A stretch of 64,000 nt of DNA from Eubacteriaceae bacterium (GTDB lineage Bacteria > Bacillota > Clostridia > Lachnospirales > Lachnospiraceae). The notes under the pieces were generated by a model, which was not told the origin of the DNA, searched no databases, and saw nothing but the letters and a program-made list of their open reading frames with translations. Position numbers and translations under genes: made by a program. The stretch spans positions 1 through 64,000 of the forward strand of contig CABIYF010000006.1 of assembly GCA_902362875.1 (NCBI GenBank), in the 5' to 3' direction. This document shows, one piece after another, positions 10,997 through 34,967 of the stretch (positions within the stretch are counted from its first letter, which is position 1; each line of letters starts with the position of its first letter).

Positions 10997-11770
10997 ATGT
11001 TTCGAAAAATGACAGTTTTTATCATACTGGTCTTAACAGCCGTCTGGTTTACAAACAGTGACAGCATTCAACCTGCGAGAGAATTTATACAAAACAACAT
11101 CTATGTCTGGAGTGAAACACAGGAAGAAAAACTTCCAATCTACTGTGTAGATACAGACAAAAAGCAAATCGCACTGACATTTGACACCGCATGGGGCAAT
11201 GAAGATATTCCACAGATTTTAAAGATACTAAAGCAGGAAAATGTAAAAGCAACATTTTTCTTTTGCGGAGACTGGATCAGCAAATATCCAGCTGATATTA
11301 AAACAATCTATGAAGAAGGACACGATATTGCAAGCCACGGAGATCGTCATAAATATATGACAAAATTAACAGACAAACAGCAGCAGGAAGAAATTAGAGG
11401 CGTCACAGAAAAAATCCAAGGATTATTAGGTATCAAAATCGATCTCTTCCGGGCGCCATATGGAGATTACAATGAATCTGTTGTAAAAAATGCAAGAAGA
11501 ATGAATTATTATATTATTCAGTGGAACGTAGACAGCTTAGACTGGCAGGAACCAACGAAAGAACAATTAATAAAGAAAGTATGTGAACATAAAAACTTAT
11601 CTCCAGGAAGTATCATCCTGATGCACACTGGAACAAAATGCACCAAACAGGCATTAAAACAGATCATAAGAAATATCAAAGTAAAAGGATATCAGTTCGT
11701 ACCAGTCTCCAGATTGATCTATCGAAGCAATTACCGCATTGATCCAACAGGAAAGCAGATAAAACTATGA
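10997..11770 (+). CDS. polysaccharide deacetylase (PdaB-like, NodB domain)
   Basis: A 257-residue protein with an N-terminal membrane anchor (residues 5-19) and a NodB homology domain. Motif 1 is TFDTAWG (Asp63; the usual second aspartate is Thr64, as in the PdaB group), motif 2 HGDRH (His114, His118), motif 3 FRAPYGDY, motif 4 DSLDW and motif 5 ILMHTG. The TFDTAWG variant and the size resemble Bacillus PdaB, needed for late spore stability; whether it de-acetylates peptidoglycan here is inference. The ribosome site is weak (AGAGAG). Confidence 0.87.
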   Translation: MFRKMTVFIILVLTAVWFTNSDSIQPAREFIQNNIYVWSETQEEKLPIYCVDTDKKQIALTFDTAWGNEDIPQILKILKQENVKATFFFCGDWISKYPADIKTIYEEGHDIASHGDRHKYMTKLTDKQQQEEIRGVTEKIQGLLGIKIDLFRAPYGDYNESVVKNARRMNYYIIQWNVDSLDWQEPTKEQLIKKVCEHKNLSPGSIILMHTGTKCTKQALKQIIRNIKVKGYQFVPVSRLIYRSNYRIDPTGKQIKL

Positions 11771-11826: not shown

Positions 11827-11856
11827 TTGACAACTAAAGAACAAATATTACATAAT
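11827..11856 (+). promoter_or_regulatory. promoter of the cobalamin-uptake operon
   Basis: TTGACA at 11827-11832 and CATAAT at 11851-11856 with an 18-bp spacer, about 40 bp before the riboswitch. Confidence 0.6.
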
Positions 11857-11892: not shown

Positions 11893-12045
11893 TCATGGTG
11901 ATTTGATATATCAGATCTCAAATTGGAATCAGGTGCAAAACCTGAGCGGTCCCGCCGCCGTGATAAGGAGTCAAAGCAACATACCACTGGGAAACTGGGA
12001 AGGTGCCAAGACGATGATCTTAAGCCGGAATACTTGCCATGATCT
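11893..12045 (+). ncRNA. cobalamin riboswitch
   Basis: Conserved elements in order: AGGTGCAAAACCT hairpin (11931-11943), GAGCGGTCCCGCCGCCGTGAT (11944-11964, matching the family GCGGTCCCGCCACTGTGAT), CCACTGGGAAACTGGGAAGG and the B12 box AAGCCGGAATACTTGCC (12022-12038). The P1 stem is TCATGG (11893-11898) with CCATGA (12037-12042). Adenosylcobalamin-type riboswitches normally switch genes off when the vitamin is abundant, which fits the transport operon downstream. Confidence 0.93.
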
Positions 12046-12173
12046 AAGGATATACTTTGCGAGTGACGAAGTCGTCCTCATGGTGCCATAATAACAAAAG
12101 ATAAGATGATCAATGCAGTCTTTTTAGAAATGAATAAGAATGCATGTCTTTTTGTTATGTAAATATGCCAGAG

Positions 12174-12214
12174 TAGATCCTTTTATGCCGTATACATGGG
12201 AGGATCTATTTTTT
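12174..12214 (+). terminator. expression-platform hairpin sequestering the ribosome site
   Basis: TAGATCC (12174-12180) pairs with GGATCTA (12202-12208), with an inner ATG/CAT pairing, followed by TTTTTT directly before the ATG at 12215. The GGGAGG ribosome site (12199-12204) is partly inside the right arm, so the hairpin could stop transcription, block translation, or both. Confidence 0.7.
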
Positions 12215-12952
12215 ATGAAAAAGTATATGATATGGCTGTTTTCAATTATGATGGCAGTTTCAATGACCGCATGTTCCAATACAGCGAAAAAAGAAGAAAC
12301 AAAACAGGAACAAAATGCCAGCAAAGATCAGGCTGTGAATGATAATACAACAGAAAATAAGACAACAACAGAGAAAAAGAAAAACGACAAAAAAGATAAG
12401 AAGAACGATAAAAATAAAGATAAGAAGAAAGACAACAAGAAAAACAAAAAAGATAACAAGAACAAAGCAGATAAAACAACAAAGAAAAATAAGACAACAA
12501 TCGTAAAAAAGAAAACAGCAACAACGAGTGCCAAGAAAACAACAACGACACATAGTCAGAAAGTTACAACACAAGAACATAAGACAACACAGGAAGCAAA
12601 AAAAGAAGAATATTGTGAGTTCTTGATCAGTTGTAAAACAGTACTTTCTCACAAAGACAGTCTTCAGTCTAATTATAAAGTACCATCTGGTGGAAAGATT
12701 TTTGAGAAAAAGATGAAGATTGAAGAGGGAGATACTGTCATGGATGTCCTGAAACGTACAGGAGTGGAACTTGACATCTCCAGAGGATATGTAGCAGGAA
12801 TTGATGGTTTATATGAATTTGATTGTGGCAGAAACAGCGGATGGATGTACCGTGTGAATGGAAAATTCCCAAATTATATGGCTGGAAAATGTACACTTCA
12901 TGATGGTGACAAGGTTGAATGGCTGTATACATGTGTCAGAGGAGATCTTTAG
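12215..12952 (+). CDS. DUF4430-domain lipoprotein of the cobalamin operon
   Basis: A 245-residue lipoprotein. The signal peptide ends in a lipobox with Cys20 (VSMTAC). Residues about 25-130 are an extreme Lys/Asn/Asp/Thr-rich linker without predicted fold. Residues about 132-245 form the DUF4430 domain, related to the beta domain of transcobalamin/intrinsic factor, with the typical DTVMDVL and SGWMYRVNGK features. I infer an extracellular cobalamin-capturing role, because a cobalamin riboswitch precedes it and ECF transporter genes follow directly. An upstream in-frame ATG at 12140 is rejected: it lies in the leader and would destroy the signal peptide. Confidence 0.88.
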   Translation: MKKYMIWLFSIMMAVSMTACSNTAKKEETKQEQNASKDQAVNDNTTENKTTTEKKKNDKKDKKNDKNKDKKKDNKKNKKDNKNKADKTTKKNKTTIVKKKTATTSAKKTTTTHSQKVTTQEHKTTQEAKKEEYCEFLISCKTVLSHKDSLQSNYKVPSGGKIFEKKMKIEEGDTVMDVLKRTGVELDISRGYVAGIDGLYEFDCGRNSGWMYRVNGKFPNYMAGKCTLHDGDKVEWLYTCVRGDL

Positions 12953-13789
12953 ATGATTAAGGCGCTAAAGAGAGCACATCCGCTTGTTGTGTTTTCCTAT
13001 TTTTTAGGACTGCTTTTGCTTGCACCATTTAGCAGACATCCATGGATGACAGGGGTTCAGATGATCTGTTTATGTCTGTTGTATCTGTATCACAATCGAA
13101 GTTTGAAAAAATTTCTGCCATTTACAGGTTTGATCGTGATCGTGGCAGTTACCAATCCAATATTTGTACAAAGAGGAAGAACGATCCTGTATGCAGATGC
13201 ACATCTAAGAATTACAAAGGAAGCGTTGCTTTATGGGATTCACTATGGATGCGTGTTGGTAAATCTGTTACTGGTATTTTCAATATTTAACCAATATATA
13301 AAGAAGGAACAGTGGATTTATCTGTCAGGACAGATCTTCCCCAAATTAGGAGTTGTAACTTCCATGGCATTTGGATTGATTCCAAGATACCAAAAACAAG
13401 CAAAGAAGATTTTAAAGACACGCAGATCTTTAAAATCAGAAAAAGCAGTGCAGCGTGTGATGAATACAGTATCGATGGAAACGACATGGGCATTTGAATC
13501 TTCTATGGACCAGTTAGATTCCATGAATGCAAGAGGTTATGGAGTCCTTAAAAGAACGCATTTTCATTTGTTTGTGTGGGAGAAAAAAGACTGGATTCAT
13601 ATAATGGAGATTCTTATTTTGACGATATTGAATTTATGGGCATACAAGCAGTATTATTCCAGATTTTTCTTTTATCCAATGATCATTATGCCAGTATTTC
13701 AGACGAAAGATGCAATATGGATGGTATTGATGGGATTACAATTTTTATTACCATGCTTATGGAAGGAGAATTTTAATGTACGAAATTAA
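12953..13789 (+). CDS. ECF transporter transmembrane component EcfT (CbiQ family)
   Basis: A 278-residue integral membrane protein with about five hydrophobic segments in the first half and last third. The cytoplasmic coupling region carries ARGYGV (near residue 190) and a preceding charged helix, matching the EcfT Ala-Arg-Gly signature that contacts the ATPases. It couples ATP hydrolysis to the S component. It starts on the base after the lipoprotein stop codon and overlaps the ATPase gene by 14 bp, so the operon is translationally tight. Because the set lies behind a cobalamin riboswitch it is probably dedicated to cobalamin rather than shared. Confidence 0.92.
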   Translation: MIKALKRAHPLVVFSYFLGLLLLAPFSRHPWMTGVQMICLCLLYLYHNRSLKKFLPFTGLIVIVAVTNPIFVQRGRTILYADAHLRITKEALLYGIHYGCVLVNLLLVFSIFNQYIKKEQWIYLSGQIFPKLGVVTSMAFGLIPRYQKQAKKILKTRRSLKSEKAVQRVMNTVSMETTWAFESSMDQLDSMNARGYGVLKRTHFHLFVWEKKDWIHIMEILILTILNLWAYKQYYSRFFFYPMIIMPVFQTKDAIWMVLMGLQFLLPCLWKENFNVRN

Positions 13790-15329
13790 TAACTTAACAT
13801 TCCGCTATATGCTTTCAGACAGAAATTCTCTAAAGCAGGTATCATTAAAGATAAAAAAAGGAAAGATCACACTGATCGCAGGACCAAGCGGCAGTGGAAA
13901 GACGACGCTGCTAAGACATTTAAAAAAGGAACTGATGCCGAAAGGGGAGAGATCAGGAGATATTTCTTATGATCGGCAGAAACTTGAACAACTATACGAT
14001 CTGCGTTCCGTAAAAGAAATTGCATATTTGTTTCAGAATCCATCGGCGCAGATGGTAATGGATACGGTATGGCACGAGATTGCGTTTGGGCTTGAAAATA
14101 TAGGAATGCCTTATGAACAGATGAAGCGTACGGTTGCGGAGATTGTCAATTACTTTGATCTGCAAAAGATTTATCACGAAAGTACCGATGAATTATCTGG
14201 CGGGCAAAAACAGATGGTAAATCTGGCAGCTGTCATGGCAATGCATCCAAAGGTGTTGATCCTTGATGAACCAACAGCACAGTTAGATCCCACAGCAAGA
14301 AAAGACTTTCTTGTGATGCTTCAGAAATTACATAAGGAATTTGGATTAACGATTATTTTGACATCCCATAATTTAGAAGATGTGATGGAAATGGCAGATC
14401 AATGCATTATTTTGGATGACGGAGAGGTTATTGAAAATGGAAATCCTCTGGAAGTTGCAGGAAATCTTCAAAAAAGGCATCATCCATTTGAACAGTCACT
14501 TCCACAGATTCTTCGTTTGGAAGATAAATTTAACTTAGAACCAAGCTTTAAGATAGAAGAAGCAAGGAAGCAGATAAGAAAGAAAGATTATCAGTTGATA
14601 AAAAAACAAAAATATACATCTAGCACAGTACTTTCTGTGAATCATTTATATGCAGGATATGAAAAAGGAAAAGATGTACTGTCAAATTTATCTGTTGAAG
14701 TGAAGCTTGGAGAAATATTTGCGGTTGTTGGGGCAAATGGAAGTGGAAAATCAACGCTTCTTTCATGTATTACAAAGCAGATGAAATATGATGGAAAAAT
14801 AAAATACAAAAAGAAAATCGTTTATATGCCGCAAGATCCAACTTTGGTGTTTGTGAAAGATGAGTTGTTTGCAGATCTTTGCGAAATGACAAATGGCAGG
14901 GAAGAAAGGATCGATGAACTGTTAGAGATGGCAGGGCTTATGAAAGAAAAACAGACACATCCGTATGATCTAAGTGGCGGCCAGCAGCAGATGGCGGCTT
15001 TGATCAAGGTATTGCTTGCAGATCCGGAGATTTTGTTGTTAGATGAACCAACCAAAGGGATGGACAGGGAACACAGCAGGAAATTTGGAGAGCTTTTGCA
15101 AAAACTTACAGATGAGGGAAAGACCATTTTCATAGTATCTCATGATCTGGAATTTTGTGCAGAATATGCAGACCGTATCGGGATGATGTTTGACGGTAAA
15201 ATCGAAGGAATTGGTGAACCATCTGAATTTTTTGGACAGAATTATTTCTATACAACAGAATGTGCAAAGATTACAAGAGACTTTGAGGAAGTGATCATCT
15301 TGCCGCAGGAGGTGGTAAGCGTATGTTAA
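13776..15329 (+). CDS. fused double ECF ATPase (EcfA-EcfA')
   Basis: A 517-residue protein with two complete ABC ATPase domains in one chain. Domain 1: Walker A GPSGSGKTT (36-44), Q-loop LFQNP, signature LSGGQ (140-144), Walker B LILDEPT (161-167), switch His in TSHNLED. Domain 2: Walker A GANGSGKST (319-327), MPQDP, LSGGQQQ, LLLDEPT and VSHDLEF. Fused ECF ATPases are known in dedicated transporters. It powers import through the EcfT encoded before it. The overlap with the S-component gene is 7 bp. Confidence 0.94.
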   Translation: MYEINNLTFRYMLSDRNSLKQVSLKIKKGKITLIAGPSGSGKTTLLRHLKKELMPKGERSGDISYDRQKLEQLYDLRSVKEIAYLFQNPSAQMVMDTVWHEIAFGLENIGMPYEQMKRTVAEIVNYFDLQKIYHESTDELSGGQKQMVNLAAVMAMHPKVLILDEPTAQLDPTARKDFLVMLQKLHKEFGLTIILTSHNLEDVMEMADQCIILDDGEVIENGNPLEVAGNLQKRHHPFEQSLPQILRLEDKFNLEPSFKIEEARKQIRKKDYQLIKKQKYTSSTVLSVNHLYAGYEKGKDVLSNLSVEVKLGEIFAVVGANGSGKSTLLSCITKQMKYDGKIKYKKKIVYMPQDPTLVFVKDELFADLCEMTNGREERIDELLEMAGLMKEKQTHPYDLSGGQQQMAALIKVLLADPEILLLDEPTKGMDREHSRKFGELLQKLTDEGKTIFIVSHDLEFCAEYADRIGMMFDGKIEGIGEPSEFFGQNYFYTTECAKITRDFEEVIILPQEVVSVC

Positions 15330-15955
15330 ATGCGGTGATCATTTTTATCGTATGTCTTTCCTGCATTCCATACTATTTCAAATACGAAAAGAGAAAACCA
15401 CAGACAAGGGAAAGTGTCGTACTTGCAGTGATGATCGCCTTGACGGTTGCATCAAGAGTGATATTTGCATTTGCACCCGGATTTAAACCAGTCAGTGCGA
15501 TGGTGATCATCTGTGGAATGGCATTTGGAAGAGAGTCAGGATTCTTGTGCGGATCTTTAAGTGCCGTGGTATCAAATTTCTTTTTTGGACAAGGACCATG
15601 GACACCATTTCAGATGCTCGCATGGGGAATGATCGGATGGATCGCAGGAATCTTAAATCAGAGAAAATGGCTGGAACACAGTAAGATACTATTGACAGTC
15701 TTTGGAATCTTATCAGGAATCGGATATTCCTTTGTCATGGATATCTGGACCCTGCTGGCAGCAGGAGATGGATTTCAGTTTATGAGATATGTGGCAGTAT
15801 TAGGGACTTCGGTTCCAACAACAATCGAATACTGCGTATCAAATGTGGTATTTTTATGGATTTTAACGCCTGTTTTTGTAAAGAAACTAAACAGGGTTAA
15901 ATATAAATATGGTTTCTTTAAAGAAAAAGAAATCAGGAAACTAATGAATCAATGA
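15323..15955 (+). CDS. ECF transporter S component, probable cobalamin specificity
   Basis: A 210-residue membrane protein with about six hydrophobic segments. The GFKPVSAMVIICGMAFGRE stretch and FFFGQGPWTPFQMLAWG are typical of the S-component group found beside cobalamin riboswitches (CbrT-like). S components bind the vitamin within the membrane and dock on EcfT. Specificity is inferred from the riboswitch and the DUF4430 lipoprotein, not from a binding motif. It ends 20 bp before the start of the propeller gene. Confidence 0.88.
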   Translation: MLNAVIIFIVCLSCIPYYFKYEKRKPQTRESVVLAVMIALTVASRVIFAFAPGFKPVSAMVIICGMAFGRESGFLCGSLSAVVSNFFFGQGPWTPFQMLAWGMIGWIAGILNQRKWLEHSKILLTVFGILSGIGYSFVMDIWTLLAAGDGFQFMRYVAVLGTSVPTTIEYCVSNVVFLWILTPVFVKKLNRVKYKYGFFKEKEIRKLMNQ

Positions 15956-15975
15956 GACATAACAAGGAGGATTTT

Positions 15976-17826
15976 ATGAGAACAATGAAACGTGCAGCGG
16001 CAGTTGCATTATCTGTTGTCATGCTGATGACATCAGGTGTTAGTGCAAAAGCAGCAGTGACAGATGCGCAGCCAGCGAAGAGTAGTAGTGAGGCTGTAGA
16101 AAAATGGGCCAAACAGATTGGATCAACATATGAAACAATGACTGATCTGAAAGTTGTTGGTGATTATATTTATCTGGCTGAAAATGCAAATAAACGTGTA
16201 GTAAGGCTTGATAAAGAAACAGGAGATATTGTTGCACAACATAAGTTTTCAGGAGATGGAGAACAGGATTACTATGCGGATATAGCATATGGTGATGGAA
16301 AAGTTTATGTAGAATATACAAATCATAAAATAGAAGCGTTTGATGCGAAAACACTGACACCAGTCTGGATCAGTGAAACAGCAGATGACTCAATCGCATC
16401 AAAGTTAACATATAAAGATAAAAAACTGTATTTTGGAACAGGAGCGTTTGGAAATTCTGGAAGCTTCTATGTACTGGATACAACAGATGAAGATCCATCA
16501 AGTGAGAATGAAGAAAAATCAATACAGAAAATTATAACGTCTACAACAGGATCATTTTACTGGAAAAAAGGAATTGATATAGGAAATTATATTATTGTTT
16601 CTGATAGAGCTGGAAATGTTACAAGTATTGATGCAAATACACAGAAGGCTGTAGATACATTTTCTGTAAATGATACGTTTAGTGGCGGAATTACATATGA
16701 TAAAACAACAGGAACTATTTATTTCGTGGCAGGAACAAATAATTTATATGGTGTAAAAGTTAATGAGGATGGAACCTTTGGACAAAGTGAACATGTACAG
16801 GTATATAAAACTGGGTTTGTTTCAATGACACCAGAAGTTTATGATGGAAAAGTTTATTTATCAGGAACAGTAGGTAATCCTTATACTGATCCAGGATATG
16901 CAGCGGTGGTAGATGTAACAACAAATCCTTATACTGTAAACTGTGTGATAGATGATGTGCTGGCAAAATATGCACAGTGCGAATTTTTAATCTCCAAAGC
17001 AGACAATTCGGTTCAGGCGTATTTTACAATTAACGATCAAGAGAAGGGTGGAATTTATTCTATAAAAGACTCTACAGGTAATGGAGATTATAAAATAGAA
17101 AATATATATGCACCACAAGATGATGAAGATAATAATATATATCGGAAACAATATTGCATGAGAGATGTTTGTGTAGACGAAAATGGTACTATGTATTATG
17201 GCAATGATGCAGGATATGTTTTTGCAGTTGGCAAAAAATCATCATCAGACCCAGTAAAACCAACACAGCCAACAACAACAGAAACAAAACCAACTACAAC
17301 AACACAGACAAAACCAACAACAAGCGTAAAACCAATCACAAAGACCCAGACATCCACAAGAAGTGTAAAACTGACATGGAAAAAGAATAAATCCGCAAAA
17401 GGATATGTAATCTATGCCAAAGCTGGAAAAGGAAAATACAAAAAACTTACAACGGTAGGAAAAACAACAAAGAAAACAGTCACAGTAAAATCAGAAACAT
17501 CCTACAAGTTTAAAGTAAAACCATACAAATACACAAAGAAAAAAGGCAAAAAAGTAAAGAAATACTATAAAGCCTATGCAGCAAAAGCAAAATACGGAAG
17601 CAAGACAGTCAAAGTTACATATAAAAATGTAAAAGGATACACAAGCTACCGCATAGACATGAAAGTAGGAAATGGTTCTTATAAAAAAGTATTAACAAGC
17701 AAAAAAACAGGAACACTGACTCTTACATACACACAGAAAAAAGCAAAAGTAGGAAAGAGTTACAAGTTCCGCCTGGTAGGAATCAAAACAGTGAATGGAA
17801 AATCTGTCGAAAAAACGATCAAATAA
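15976..17826 (+). CDS. secreted beta-propeller protein with C-terminal Fn3-like region
   Basis: A 616-residue exported protein: signal peptide at residues 1 to about 27 (VSAKA-AVT cut), then a region to about residue 425 with repeated propeller-like blades (DLKVVGDYIYLAEN, YGDGKVYVEYTNHKIEAFD, TYDKTTGTIYFVAGTNNLYGV, YDGKVYLSGTV, a PQQ-like/quinoprotein pattern), a Thr/Pro/Lys linker at about 432-460, and a fibronectin-III-like tail (LTWKKNKSAKGYVIYAKAG onward). It is the last gene of the cobalamin ECF operon and precedes a terminator. Its part in vitamin capture is inferred from position only. The ATG at 15976 with AAGGAGG 5 nt upstream is preferred to the ATG at 15952. Confidence 0.82.
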   Translation: MRTMKRAAAVALSVVMLMTSGVSAKAAVTDAQPAKSSSEAVEKWAKQIGSTYETMTDLKVVGDYIYLAENANKRVVRLDKETGDIVAQHKFSGDGEQDYYADIAYGDGKVYVEYTNHKIEAFDAKTLTPVWISETADDSIASKLTYKDKKLYFGTGAFGNSGSFYVLDTTDEDPSSENEEKSIQKIITSTTGSFYWKKGIDIGNYIIVSDRAGNVTSIDANTQKAVDTFSVNDTFSGGITYDKTTGTIYFVAGTNNLYGVKVNEDGTFGQSEHVQVYKTGFVSMTPEVYDGKVYLSGTVGNPYTDPGYAAVVDVTTNPYTVNCVIDDVLAKYAQCEFLISKADNSVQAYFTINDQEKGGIYSIKDSTGNGDYKIENIYAPQDDEDNNIYRKQYCMRDVCVDENGTMYYGNDAGYVFAVGKKSSSDPVKPTQPTTTETKPTTTTQTKPTTSVKPITKTQTSTRSVKLTWKKNKSAKGYVIYAKAGKGKYKKLTTVGKTTKKTVTVKSETSYKFKVKPYKYTKKKGKKVKKYYKAYAAKAKYGSKTVKVTYKNVKGYTSYRIDMKVGNGSYKKVLTSKKTGTLTLTYTQKKAKVGKSYKFRLVGIKTVNGKSVEKTIK

Positions 17827-17904: not shown

Positions 17905-17951
17905 AAGGGCGTCAAACAATTAGTTTCATATTGTTTGTCGCCCCTTTTTTT
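17905..17951 (+). terminator. strong terminator between the propeller gene and glnN
   Basis: AAGGGCG-T-CAAACAAT pairs with ATTGTTTG-T-CGCCCCTT around the loop TAGTTTCAT, followed by seven T. It ends the cobalamin operon and may also act as a glnN attenuator. A small hairpin CAGT-GAAGTT-ACTG (17889-17902) precedes it. Confidence 0.9.
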
Positions 17952-20215: not shown

Positions 20216-20324
20216 GTACAGATATATTTCATGTGTAAATATATGCCAGAATAAAAATGAAAGTTCTTCGCATGATAAATAGAAAGAAGAATTGAAATCA
20301 AAATATTTTGGAAAGAGGAAGAAT

Positions 20325-21095
20325 ATGAGAAAGAAAATTTTTGCGTATGGGATCATGTTGTTGATGATCAGCACATGTACATTACAATTAATGTCCAGAC
20401 AAAATAATATATTCAAGATTGCAAGTCAGGGAGAAGGCGAGGGAGGATTTCTGACCAACAATAATTTAAATCAAAAAAAGGTATATCTGACTTTCGATGA
20501 CGGGCCGTCAGACCATACGGCAGAAATCCTTGATATTCTAAAGAAAAATAAAGTCAAAGCCACATTTTTTGTTGTAGGGAAAGAGACAGAACATGCCAAA
20601 AAGATGTACCAGAGAATCATTTTAGAAGGTCATACACTCGCAATGCATTCCTACAGCCATAATTATGATCAGATTTATGCAAGTGTCGATGCATTTTCAA
20701 AAGATCTGATGAAGCTTCAAAAATACTTGTATGATGTGACGGATGTAAAGCCGTATATTTACAGATTTCCAGGAGGAAGCAGCAATCATTGTGCGGGAGA
20801 TATCAAACCATATATCCGTTATGTGAATAAAAAAGGACTGCTTTATTTTGACTGGAATGCATTAAATGAGGATGCAGTCAATTTTGAACAGACTTCGAAA
20901 CAGTTAAATGACAAAATATTAAAAGATGTCAGAAGACAGAAGACAAGTATTGTGTTAATGCATGATCTTCATGAGACGAAAAATACAGTGAAGGGGCTAG
21001 ATACATTGATCAAAACGTTGAAAAAAGAAGGGTATCTGATACTTCCGATCACAAAAAATACGAAGCCGCTTCACCATGTCTCCATTGACAAATAA
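20325..21095 (+). CDS. polysaccharide deacetylase (NodB domain), membrane-anchored
   Basis: A 256-residue protein with an N-terminal signal anchor (residues 5-21) and a complete NodB deacetylase domain: LTFDDGPSDH (motif 1 with both aspartates), MHSYSHNY (motif 2 His pair), RFPGGSSN (motif 3), DWNALNED (motif 4) and VLMHDLHE (motif 5). It probably removes N-acetyl groups from peptidoglycan at the cell surface, which raises lysozyme resistance in related organisms; substrate is inferred. The ATG at 20325 follows GAGGAAG; an upstream in-frame TTG at 20292 is less likely. Confidence 0.88.
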   Translation: MRKKIFAYGIMLLMISTCTLQLMSRQNNIFKIASQGEGEGGFLTNNNLNQKKVYLTFDDGPSDHTAEILDILKKNKVKATFFVVGKETEHAKKMYQRIILEGHTLAMHSYSHNYDQIYASVDAFSKDLMKLQKYLYDVTDVKPYIYRFPGGSSNHCAGDIKPYIRYVNKKGLLYFDWNALNEDAVNFEQTSKQLNDKILKDVRRQKTSIVLMHDLHETKNTVKGLDTLIKTLKKEGYLILPITKNTKPLHHVSIDK

Positions 21096-31414: not shown

Positions 31415-31702
31415 TAAAAAAAGCTCCGAATCTGATCCTTACCAGGATAGAGACGAAGAAACTTCCGCGGTACCACTCTAATTCACGTTATAAATAAACG
31501 TGCACTTTTTACTGATACGGGTTATAAAACCGATATCTCTCCACTGTAACGGTTGGACTCCGGCAATACCTACTGTAAGTTCAGCATGCTACTCAAAGGC
31601 GAGTTCAAATATCATCAACAATTGCTTCACACCAGCCAGCAACTCTCTGAATGTCTCAAATATTCTACTATTCCTTATCATTGTATTTAAATGATTTACA
31701 AT
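31415..31702 (-). ncRNA. T-box leader of leuA (leucine, CUC specifier)
   Basis: On the minus strand the leader has a stem I with the specifier CUC at 31603-31601 in the context GAA-CUC, the T-box GAGTGGTACCGCGG (about 31482-31469), and a terminator CTTCGTCTCTATCC...AGGATCAGATTCGGAG followed by seven T at about 31415-31460. Uncharged tRNA-Leu(GAG) would favour the antiterminator. Confidence 0.92.
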
Positions 31703-32281: not shown

Positions 32282-32352
32282 TGGGGTATCGCCAAGTGGT
32301 AAGGCACAGGATTCTGACTCCTGCACCGCTGGTTCGAGTCCAGCTACCCCAG
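32282..32352 (+). tRNA. tRNA-Gln (anticodon CTG), copy 1
   Basis: Acceptor TGGGGTA/TACCCCA with discriminator G; anticodon stem CAGGA/TCCTG around loop TTCTGAC, anticodon CTG; T-arm GCTGG-TTCGAGT-CCAGC. CCA is not encoded. Confidence 0.95.
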
Positions 32353-32357
32353 TTTAA

Positions 32358-32430
32358 GGGTGTGTAGCTCAGGTGGTAGAGCACTTGACTTTTAATCAAG
32401 TTGTCCGGGGTTCGAATCCCCGCACGCTCA
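32358..32430 (+). tRNA. tRNA-Lys (anticodon TTT), copy 1
   Basis: Acceptor GGGTGTG/CACGCTC with G-U pairs and discriminator A; anticodon stem CTTGA/TCAAG around loop CTTTTAA, anticodon TTT; T-arm CGGGG-TTCGAAT-CCCCG. Confidence 0.95.
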
Positions 32431-32474
32431 CTATATTTTTTAAAAATAAGATTTTAAAAAATATAAAAAAGTTC

Positions 32475-32503
32475 TTGACAAAGAACGACAGCTGATATAT
32501 AAT
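32475..32503 (+). promoter_or_regulatory. promoter of the second tRNA-Gln/Lys pair
   Basis: TTGACA at 32475-32480 and TATAAT at 32498-32503, 17-bp spacer: a consensus promoter. Confidence 0.88.
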
Positions 32504-32522
32504 GAAATAGTTGTTGCACTGA

Positions 32523-32593
32523 TGGGGTATCGCCAAGTGGTAAGGCACAGGATTCTGACTCCTGCACCGCTGGTTCGAGTCCAGCTACCCCAG
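32523..32593 (+). tRNA. tRNA-Gln (anticodon CTG), copy 2
   Basis: Identical in sequence to the copy at 32282-32352. Confidence 0.95.
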
Positions 32594-32597
32594 TTAA

Positions 32598-32670
32598 GGG
32601 TGTGTAGCTCAGGTGGTAGAGCACTTGACTTTTAATCAAGTTGTCCGGGGTTCGAATCCCCGCACGCTCA
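32598..32670 (+). tRNA. tRNA-Lys (anticodon TTT), copy 2
   Basis: Identical in sequence to the copy at 32358-32430; the Gln-Lys spacer is one base shorter (4 rather than 5 nt). Confidence 0.95.
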
Positions 32671-34689: not shown

Positions 34690-34967
34690 GTTAAATGCAA
34701 TGAACAGAATTAGTACAGACGAATTGGAACTGTCAGAGAGAAGCTGTCACCGGCTGAAAGCAGCTTTTAGGGAAGATGTCTGGAATGCATCTGGGAGCAG
34801 ACAAGATGAATCAAGTAGTTTTGTACGTCGCCGGCGTTAACGGATTTAAGTGAAAACATTCTGCCTAAGTGATATCACTCAGGGATATGATCAGAAGGAC
34901 AGAAGTTTTTAAAAGAGTGGAACCGCGGATATACTTCGTCTCTTTGTTAGGAGACGGAGTTTTTTTG
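34690..34967 (+). ncRNA. T-box leader of cysE-cysS (cysteine, UGC specifier)
   Basis: Stem I region from about 34720 (AGAGAAGCTG...CAGCTTTT...) with the specifier UGC at 34786-34788 in the context GAA-UGC; T-box AGAGTGGAACCGCGG at 34914-34928; terminator ACTTCGTCTC/GGAGACGGAGT with TTTTTT at 34933-34967. Uncharged tRNA-Cys should permit read-through. Confidence 0.93.

Follow-up and report, generated by a model that had tools for sequence, protein, structure and literature searches.

Organization of the operon

The window analysed here, the first 64,000 nucleotides of contig CABIYF010000006.1 of Eubacteriaceae bacterium (assembly GCA_902362875.1), contains an operon in which a cobalamin riboswitch is followed by five close-packed genes and a terminator (Table 1). 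In order, the genes encode a lipoprotein with a DUF4430 domain, the EcfT-like membrane protein, fused EcfA-EcfA ATPase and S component of an energy-coupling factor (ECF) transporter, and a secreted protein in which a beta-propeller is joined to a tail resembling fibronectin type III (Fn3) domains. The first four genes abut or overlap, and a gap of 20 nt separates the S component gene from the propeller start. The same architecture had been proposed in a preliminary description of this DNA, and is borne out by the riboswitch, domain and gene-order results; the gene set stands as then given, but the start of the riboswitch moves 14 nt upstream, and the terminator hairpin, although present, lies past the end assigned to the operon. 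The lipoprotein gene probably starts at 12215 (the start of the longest open reading frame, ORF, is 12140), and the propeller gene at 15976 rather than 15952, which gives a protein of 616 aa, the same length as P0001.

Table 1. Positions in the window of the features of the operon.
Feature	Position	Strand	Evidence
Promoter-like sequence, TTGACA-18-CATAAT	11827..11856	+	consensus match only, 11/12 positions
Cobalamin riboswitch aptamer, RF00174	11879..12055	+	95.2 bits (gathering score 31.5), E 2e-22
Hairpin enclosing the lipoprotein ribosome-binding site, running into T residues	12170..12212	+	-20.3 kcal/mol, z -5.3
Lipoprotein, Lys/Thr-rich linker, C-terminal DUF4430 (about 12728-12931)	12215..12952	+	PF14478, E 1.2e-19 to 1.5e-19
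EcfT-like membrane protein	12953..13789	+	position, similarity across related loci, weak TIGR02454 match
Fused EcfA-EcfA ATPase, 517 aa	13776..15329	+	two ABC_tran stretches
S component, CbrT-like	15323..15955	+	PF07155; 6FNP
Secreted propeller and Fn3-like protein	15976..17826	+	signal peptide, propeller (about 16063-17247), linker, tail (about 17323-17823)
Intrinsic terminator hairpin, T run after	17907..17943	+	z -4.7

The transporter genes

An S component homologous to CbrT, an EcfT and two EcfA domains, by which a CbrT-type ECF transporter is recognized, were all found in the operon. The S component has as its best match among solved structures 6FNP chain A (E 4.9e-6), the next being 4HZU (E 8.9e-4); with a profile of 18 sequences, 6FNP (E 1.5e-20) again precedes 4HZU (1.4e-6), with 3P5N third (0.0045). 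The structure 6FNP is described as that of ECF-CbrT, which transports B12 in Lactobacillus delbrueckii (eLife 2018, PMC5997447). The ATPase scores 321.8 bits against TIGR04520 (cutoff 315) and 328.2 bits against TIGR04521 (cutoff 330). The putative EcfT gave no match in the Pfam scan and matched TIGR02454 only below the cutoff, so that no curated family was found above its cutoff; it is identified by its position and by the occurrence of a similar gene in 46 of 46 related loci. Transport of cobalamin by the operon is a prediction, on which the riboswitch bears only indirectly.

The related loci (L001-L046) were obtained by scanning genomes for the S component, and in each of them EcfT-like and EcfA-EcfA-like ORFs precede the S gene. 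The two nearest, L001 of Lachnospiraceae bacterium S14_Bin3 (69%) and L002 of Candidatus Anaerostipes avistercoris (67%), make a member of the Lachnospiraceae resembling Anaerostipes the likely source of the window. Downstream of the operon, L002 has MTHFR and a MetH with B12-binding domains. A same-strand cobalamin riboswitch lies ahead of the ECF genes in 20 of the 46 loci (18 RF00174, 2 RF01689, AdoCbl-II); by batch the counts were 3/10, 4/9, 3/11, 5/9 and 5/7, both AdoCbl-II elements being in the last. In four loci recovered through the propeller (see below), the S component forms the C-terminal end of a chain of 768-823 aa (L113 3674-5980, L114 5820-8165, L115 10133-12544, L118 5103-7574); in the chain of L114, the one scanned, Pfam places two ABC_tran stretches ahead of the S component.

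The DUF4430 lipoprotein and its relatives

As read from the sequence, the N-terminus of the lipoprotein is hydrophobic and carries the motif MTAC, which we take to be lipobox-like, pointing to an exported surface protein. No window ORF of at least 60 aa matched the alpha-toroid profile, and the window protein is thus a DUF4430-only form. Related loci usually have DUF4430 fused to an alpha-toroid: the profile scan of the 46 loci found DUF4430 in 44 and the toroid in 39. The seven toroid-less loci include two cut by contig ends (L010, L019) and L030, which has neither domain at the locus and a toroid elsewhere in its genome. Pfam, which labels the toroid as squalene-cyclase or prenyltransferase repeats, found DUF4430 in 45 of 47 proteins, SQHop_cyclase_C in 24 and Prenyltrans in 13; the two proteins lacking DUF4430 are neighbours from L030.

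The structural affinities of the toroid-bearing form were assessed with a model of a relative (L031, 622 aa, mean pLDDT 84.0, linker 334-409 below 50). With toroid and DUF4430 together, Foldseek ranks 1-15 (E 7.6e-7 to 1.8e-5) go to rat, bovine and human transcobalamin, haptocorrin and intrinsic factor; at rank 46 is the human beta-domain in isolation, 5no0 (E 0.0031, TM 0.78 by its own length). Over the two domains the TM-scores do not exceed 0.49 by target, low values that are to be expected when the linker is free. The nearest structure to the toroid alone is squalene-hopene cyclase. In this model, helix 529-540 has strands at 544-549 and 554-560 after it, where a beta-hairpin insert would be expected for the transcobalamin-like SLBB clade. 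According to PMC4350170, DUF4430 is located C-terminally in transcobalamins, and teleosts have short forms with DUF4430 only. The window lipoprotein is predicted to bind a corrinoid.

The propeller protein

The propeller scores 32.1 bits with PQQ_2 in Pfam (cutoff 27.6). Its model has 32 strands between residues 40 and 420, corresponding to eight blades of four, and the fold is similar to BamB and YxaL, the top structure matches including the eight-bladed Tako8 and BamB. The propeller of BamB itself has eight blades. An identification as BamB was rejected, as the TIGR03300 equivalog gives 22 bits against a cutoff of 285.2, and so was one as BtuG, since there are eight blades instead of seven and no Cys in the signal region, and hence no surface lipoprotein. 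The Fn3-like tail is very basic (51 Lys/Arg against 3 Asp/Glu in 167 residues) and is reused on three surface proteins of genome G001 (L048, L049, L050) that do not match the propeller profile. This tail may be what retains the propeller protein in the wall.

Linkage of the propeller to B12 genes

Propeller genes were searched for without regard to gene context. With the propeller part as query (window 15952-17199, E 1e-10), 25 of 397 genomes of the family of G001 matched; a search of 295 genomes at the level of the order (query A3, E 1e-15) returned 10, six of them new, for a total of 31 propeller genomes. One stretch per genome was fetched and scanned with profiles (31 loci), and cobalamin riboswitches were listed for the 25 family genomes and G002. 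In 12 of the 25 family genomes, a cobalamin riboswitch precedes a propeller ORF on its strand by at most 1 kb, against an expectation of about 0.009 when one gene is drawn at random from each genome (as many as three propeller ORFs are present in some of them). In five more (G001, G229, G332, G053, G125), the propeller belongs to an uninterrupted run of genes on one strand that is headed by a riboswitch, which brings to 17 of 25 the family genomes in which a riboswitch heads the propeller gene or its run; the same holds for four of the six order-level genomes (L113, L115, L116, L117).

EcfS and/or EcfT of this type are encoded in 18 of the 31 loci, DUF4430 or toroid only in 10, and neither in three (L089, L092, L123). 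A riboswitch is present within 1 kb in two of these partnerless loci (L089, L123); none accompanies the propeller of L092, whose genome has a toroid elsewhere. Propeller and DUF4430 are fused in eleven ORFs, of which that of L085 (2851 aa) includes a toroid too; of the three fusions submitted to Pfam, DUF4430 was confirmed in L098 (7457-9487, 676 aa) and L114. The association of the propeller with B12 genes is real, and the propeller is a recurrent part of such importers. An unrelated surface gene that lies at the end of the operon by chance would agree with the propeller being the last gene, and present in only one of the 46 S-component loci, but is contradicted by the riboswitch count and the 11 fusions, and we regard this explanation as highly improbable. 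That the gene is no chance neighbour had already been claimed in the preliminary description. Against its interpretation as a whole, that description would have counted a predominance of propeller homologues lacking cobalamin riboswitches or ECF genes; the opposite was found, most of them adjoining cobalamin riboswitches or ECF/DUF4430 genes.

Other genes were observed at the propeller loci. In L084 (3050-4195) CbiZ, an adenosylcobinamide amidohydrolase, is encoded upstream of the propeller genes, which suggests cobamide remodelling. Genes for MoxR-like AAA_3 ATPases occur inside or beside DUF4430, toroid and propeller genes (L093 2063-6181, L083 1090-3104, L090 13402-14343), accompanied by DUF58 (L093, L083) and by a protein with a transglutaminase core (L093).

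Toroid and propeller as partners of DUF4430

The toroid was searched for genome-wide in nine genomes whose loci combine ECF, DUF4430 and propeller genes but have no toroid. No toroid was found anywhere in eight of them (G001, G038, G110, G157, G332, G249, G147, G053), and the ninth (G655) has one elsewhere in the genome. As a control, the search recovered the toroid in 4/4 genomes with toroid loci (G183, G229, G100, G177); it also found it in G160, G630 and G694. Propeller and toroid are present together in 12 of the 31 loci, nine with ECF genes (L085, L086, L093, L113, L114, L115, L118, L120, L121) and three without (L081, L083, L122).

Regulatory elements and flanking genes

The hairpin downstream of the aptamer encloses the sequence GGGAGG (12198-12203), the ribosome-binding site of the lipoprotein gene, and is probably the expression platform of the riboswitch, plausibly acting as an off-switch. 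Promoter-like sites are not in excess in the whole scanned stretch (17 against a shuffle mean of 22.8), and the scan that yielded the promoter match of Table 1 listed neither this hairpin nor that of the terminator. The operon is flanked upstream by a polysaccharide deacetylase gene (window 10997-11770, PF01522); the other flanking gene we take to encode a glutamine synthetase, and its relative in L001 is 90% identical. A second polysaccharide deacetylase-like gene, assigned by resemblance only, lies beyond the operon and its neighbour (20292-21095). Elsewhere in the window there are two T-box leaders on opposite strands (31446-31690, minus; 34691-34946, plus) and two tandem tRNA pairs with identical scores (32282-32670), an apparent duplication.

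Discussion

Gene order, riboswitch, domains, relationship to CbrT, and the recurrent linkage or fusion of propeller, DUF4430 and ECF genes were all computed directly. We consider it likely that the operon specifies a dedicated ECF-type importer of cobalamin (cobamide), to which a predicted extracellular capture module has been added under the control of a cobalamin riboswitch, and very probable that the DUF4430 and propeller proteins belong to B12 uptake. In the mechanism that we envisage, DUF4430, a transcobalamin-type beta-domain of SLBB fold held on a long flexible membrane tether, would bind the corrinoid; the propeller protein, kept in the wall by its basic tail, would work with the lipoprotein as capture partner or as docking platform; the CbrT-like S component would then receive the corrinoid, and EcfT with the fused ATPase would import it; and the riboswitch with its hairpin would switch the operon off.

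Several observations weigh against this interpretation. No cobalamin riboswitch reaches the gathering score in 26 of the 46 S-component loci, and 19 of these 26 are titled Ruminococcus; L010, L013 and L019 are truncated by contig ends, and most of the titled records are metagenome-assembled genomes, possibly incomplete. The propeller was found in none of the 44 genomes behind L003-L046 (E 1e-15), in a search whose query succeeds in six known carriers (G183, G100, G177, G606, G427, G655). The genomes of L002, L035 and L040 have ECF genes and DUF4430 with neither propeller nor toroid, and since these genomes do without it, the propeller is not always needed. Propeller and ECF genes are divergently oriented in L086, L095 and L120, and therefore the linkage in these loci is not one of co-transcription. 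Finally, several DUF4430 matches beside propellers are short or weak (E 1e-6 to 1e-10), and in the fusion of L085 Pfam found neither DUF4430 nor toroid, which are recognized there by our in-house profiles alone.

The part played by the propeller can be construed in other ways. It may only tether or scaffold the capture proteins at the wall, DUF4430 alone (with the toroid where present) touching B12. Tethering is the role that Burroughs et al. (2007, PMC1796856) proposed for additional domains of this kind; the propeller is often found within very large surface proteins, with Big_2 in L085 and SLH in L114; and BamB-like propellers act as scaffolds elsewhere, an example being MMAR_1667/Rv3035, a predicted eight-bladed partner of the lipoprotein FecB (PMC12802301). 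Since anchors already exist as separate elements, namely the basic tail of the window protein and of the three propeller-less G001 proteins, and SLH in L114, we hold a pure tether to be a serious possibility but lean somewhat against it. A more specific proposal is that in a gut lineage of Lachnospiraceae the alpha-toroid was lost and replaced by the wall-held eight-bladed propeller, which would close as a second jaw with the DUF4430 lipoprotein on B12, each taking one face of the corrinoid as the two domains of transcobalamin do. The absence of any toroid from eight of the nine genomes searched, with a search that works in its controls, and the propeller-DUF4430 fusions agree with it, but those genome counts ignore relatedness, and the coexistence of propeller and toroid in 12 of 31 loci and the three ECF-DUF4430 genomes with neither argue to the contrary, so that replacement appears quite unlikely; such a clamp, if real, would mean that propellers have come to serve in B12 capture twice independently, here and in BtuG. 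Because of the same 12 loci and three genomes, the module looks rather like a DUF4430 core that can be joined by a toroid, a propeller or both.

The substrate, too, may differ from B12 itself and be another cobamide or a precursor such as cobinamide. Precursors are mentioned by Burroughs et al. (PMC1796856), L084 has CbiZ upstream of its propeller genes, and a cobalamin riboswitch is compatible with any such substrate; against this, the S component is nearest to CbrT, and MetH lies downstream of the operon in L002. We consider a substrate other than B12 possible, though unlikely.

Among known systems, the lipoprotein shares the beta-domain family of transcobalamin, intrinsic factor and haptocorrin, from which it differs in lacking the alpha-toroid, present in most of its relatives, and in being a lipoprotein. 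BtuB is an outer-membrane transporter, and for this reason the functional analogy with BtuB drawn in the preliminary description is a poor parallel; transcobalamin, BtuG/BtuH or BtuF fit better. In L. delbrueckii, CbrT uses a shared ECF module. The two ECF importers have homologous S components, but in that organism the genes form an nrdJ-cbrS-cbrT-pduO cluster (PMC5997447), whereas here EcfT, ATPase, S component and surface proteins share one operon. BtuG (PMC6143338) and BtuH (PMC8941943) are the counterparts for surface capture of B12 in Bacteroides. Like the system predicted here, they couple capture to an importer, and BtuG is also a propeller; it is described, however, as a seven-bladed lipoprotein that interacts with BtuB (PMC6143338), while the window propeller has eight blades and no lipobox, and its importer is of the ECF type. 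With BamB and YxaL the propeller has in common the eight-bladed PQQ_2-type fold, the functions of these proteins being different.

The closest precedent is the study of Burroughs, Balaji, Iyer and Aravind (2007, PMC1796856), which defined the SLBB superfamily and placed the transcobalamin C-terminal domain in it. For transcobalamin-like proteins of Gram-positive bacteria it lists signal peptides, fusions to alpha/alpha toroids and one beta-propeller fusion; it reports operons with CbiO- and CbiQ-like genes in organisms usually lacking key enzymes of B12 synthesis, and predicts B12 scavenging. The suggestion that a capture step would be new for ECF systems thus does not hold, having been anticipated there, propeller fusion included. 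A DUF4430-type domain, a signal peptide, an ECF-type ATPase and membrane protein in one operon, and a propeller are common to both; here, in contrast, the S component is tied to CbrT, the propeller is recurrent and, in the window, a separate subunit, and the window variant has no toroid. The word 'riboswitch' does not appear in the main text of that paper, and no experimental follow-up of its prediction was found in searches of open-licence papers. What is new, therefore, are the counted links to riboswitches and to CbrT, the recurrence of the propeller and the toroid-less variant, the idea of capture being already published.

The identification of B12 transport in numerous gut genomes has been said to remain 'an open problem' (PMC6593275). 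The counts reported here define a testable gene set and help to explain a 'domain of unknown function', DUF4430. If our interpretation is correct, some gut Firmicutes capture B12 at their surface with a domain of the family found in human transcobalamin and intrinsic factor, together with a propeller, and their competitors for the vitamin could be Bacteroides, with BtuG/BtuH, and perhaps the host.

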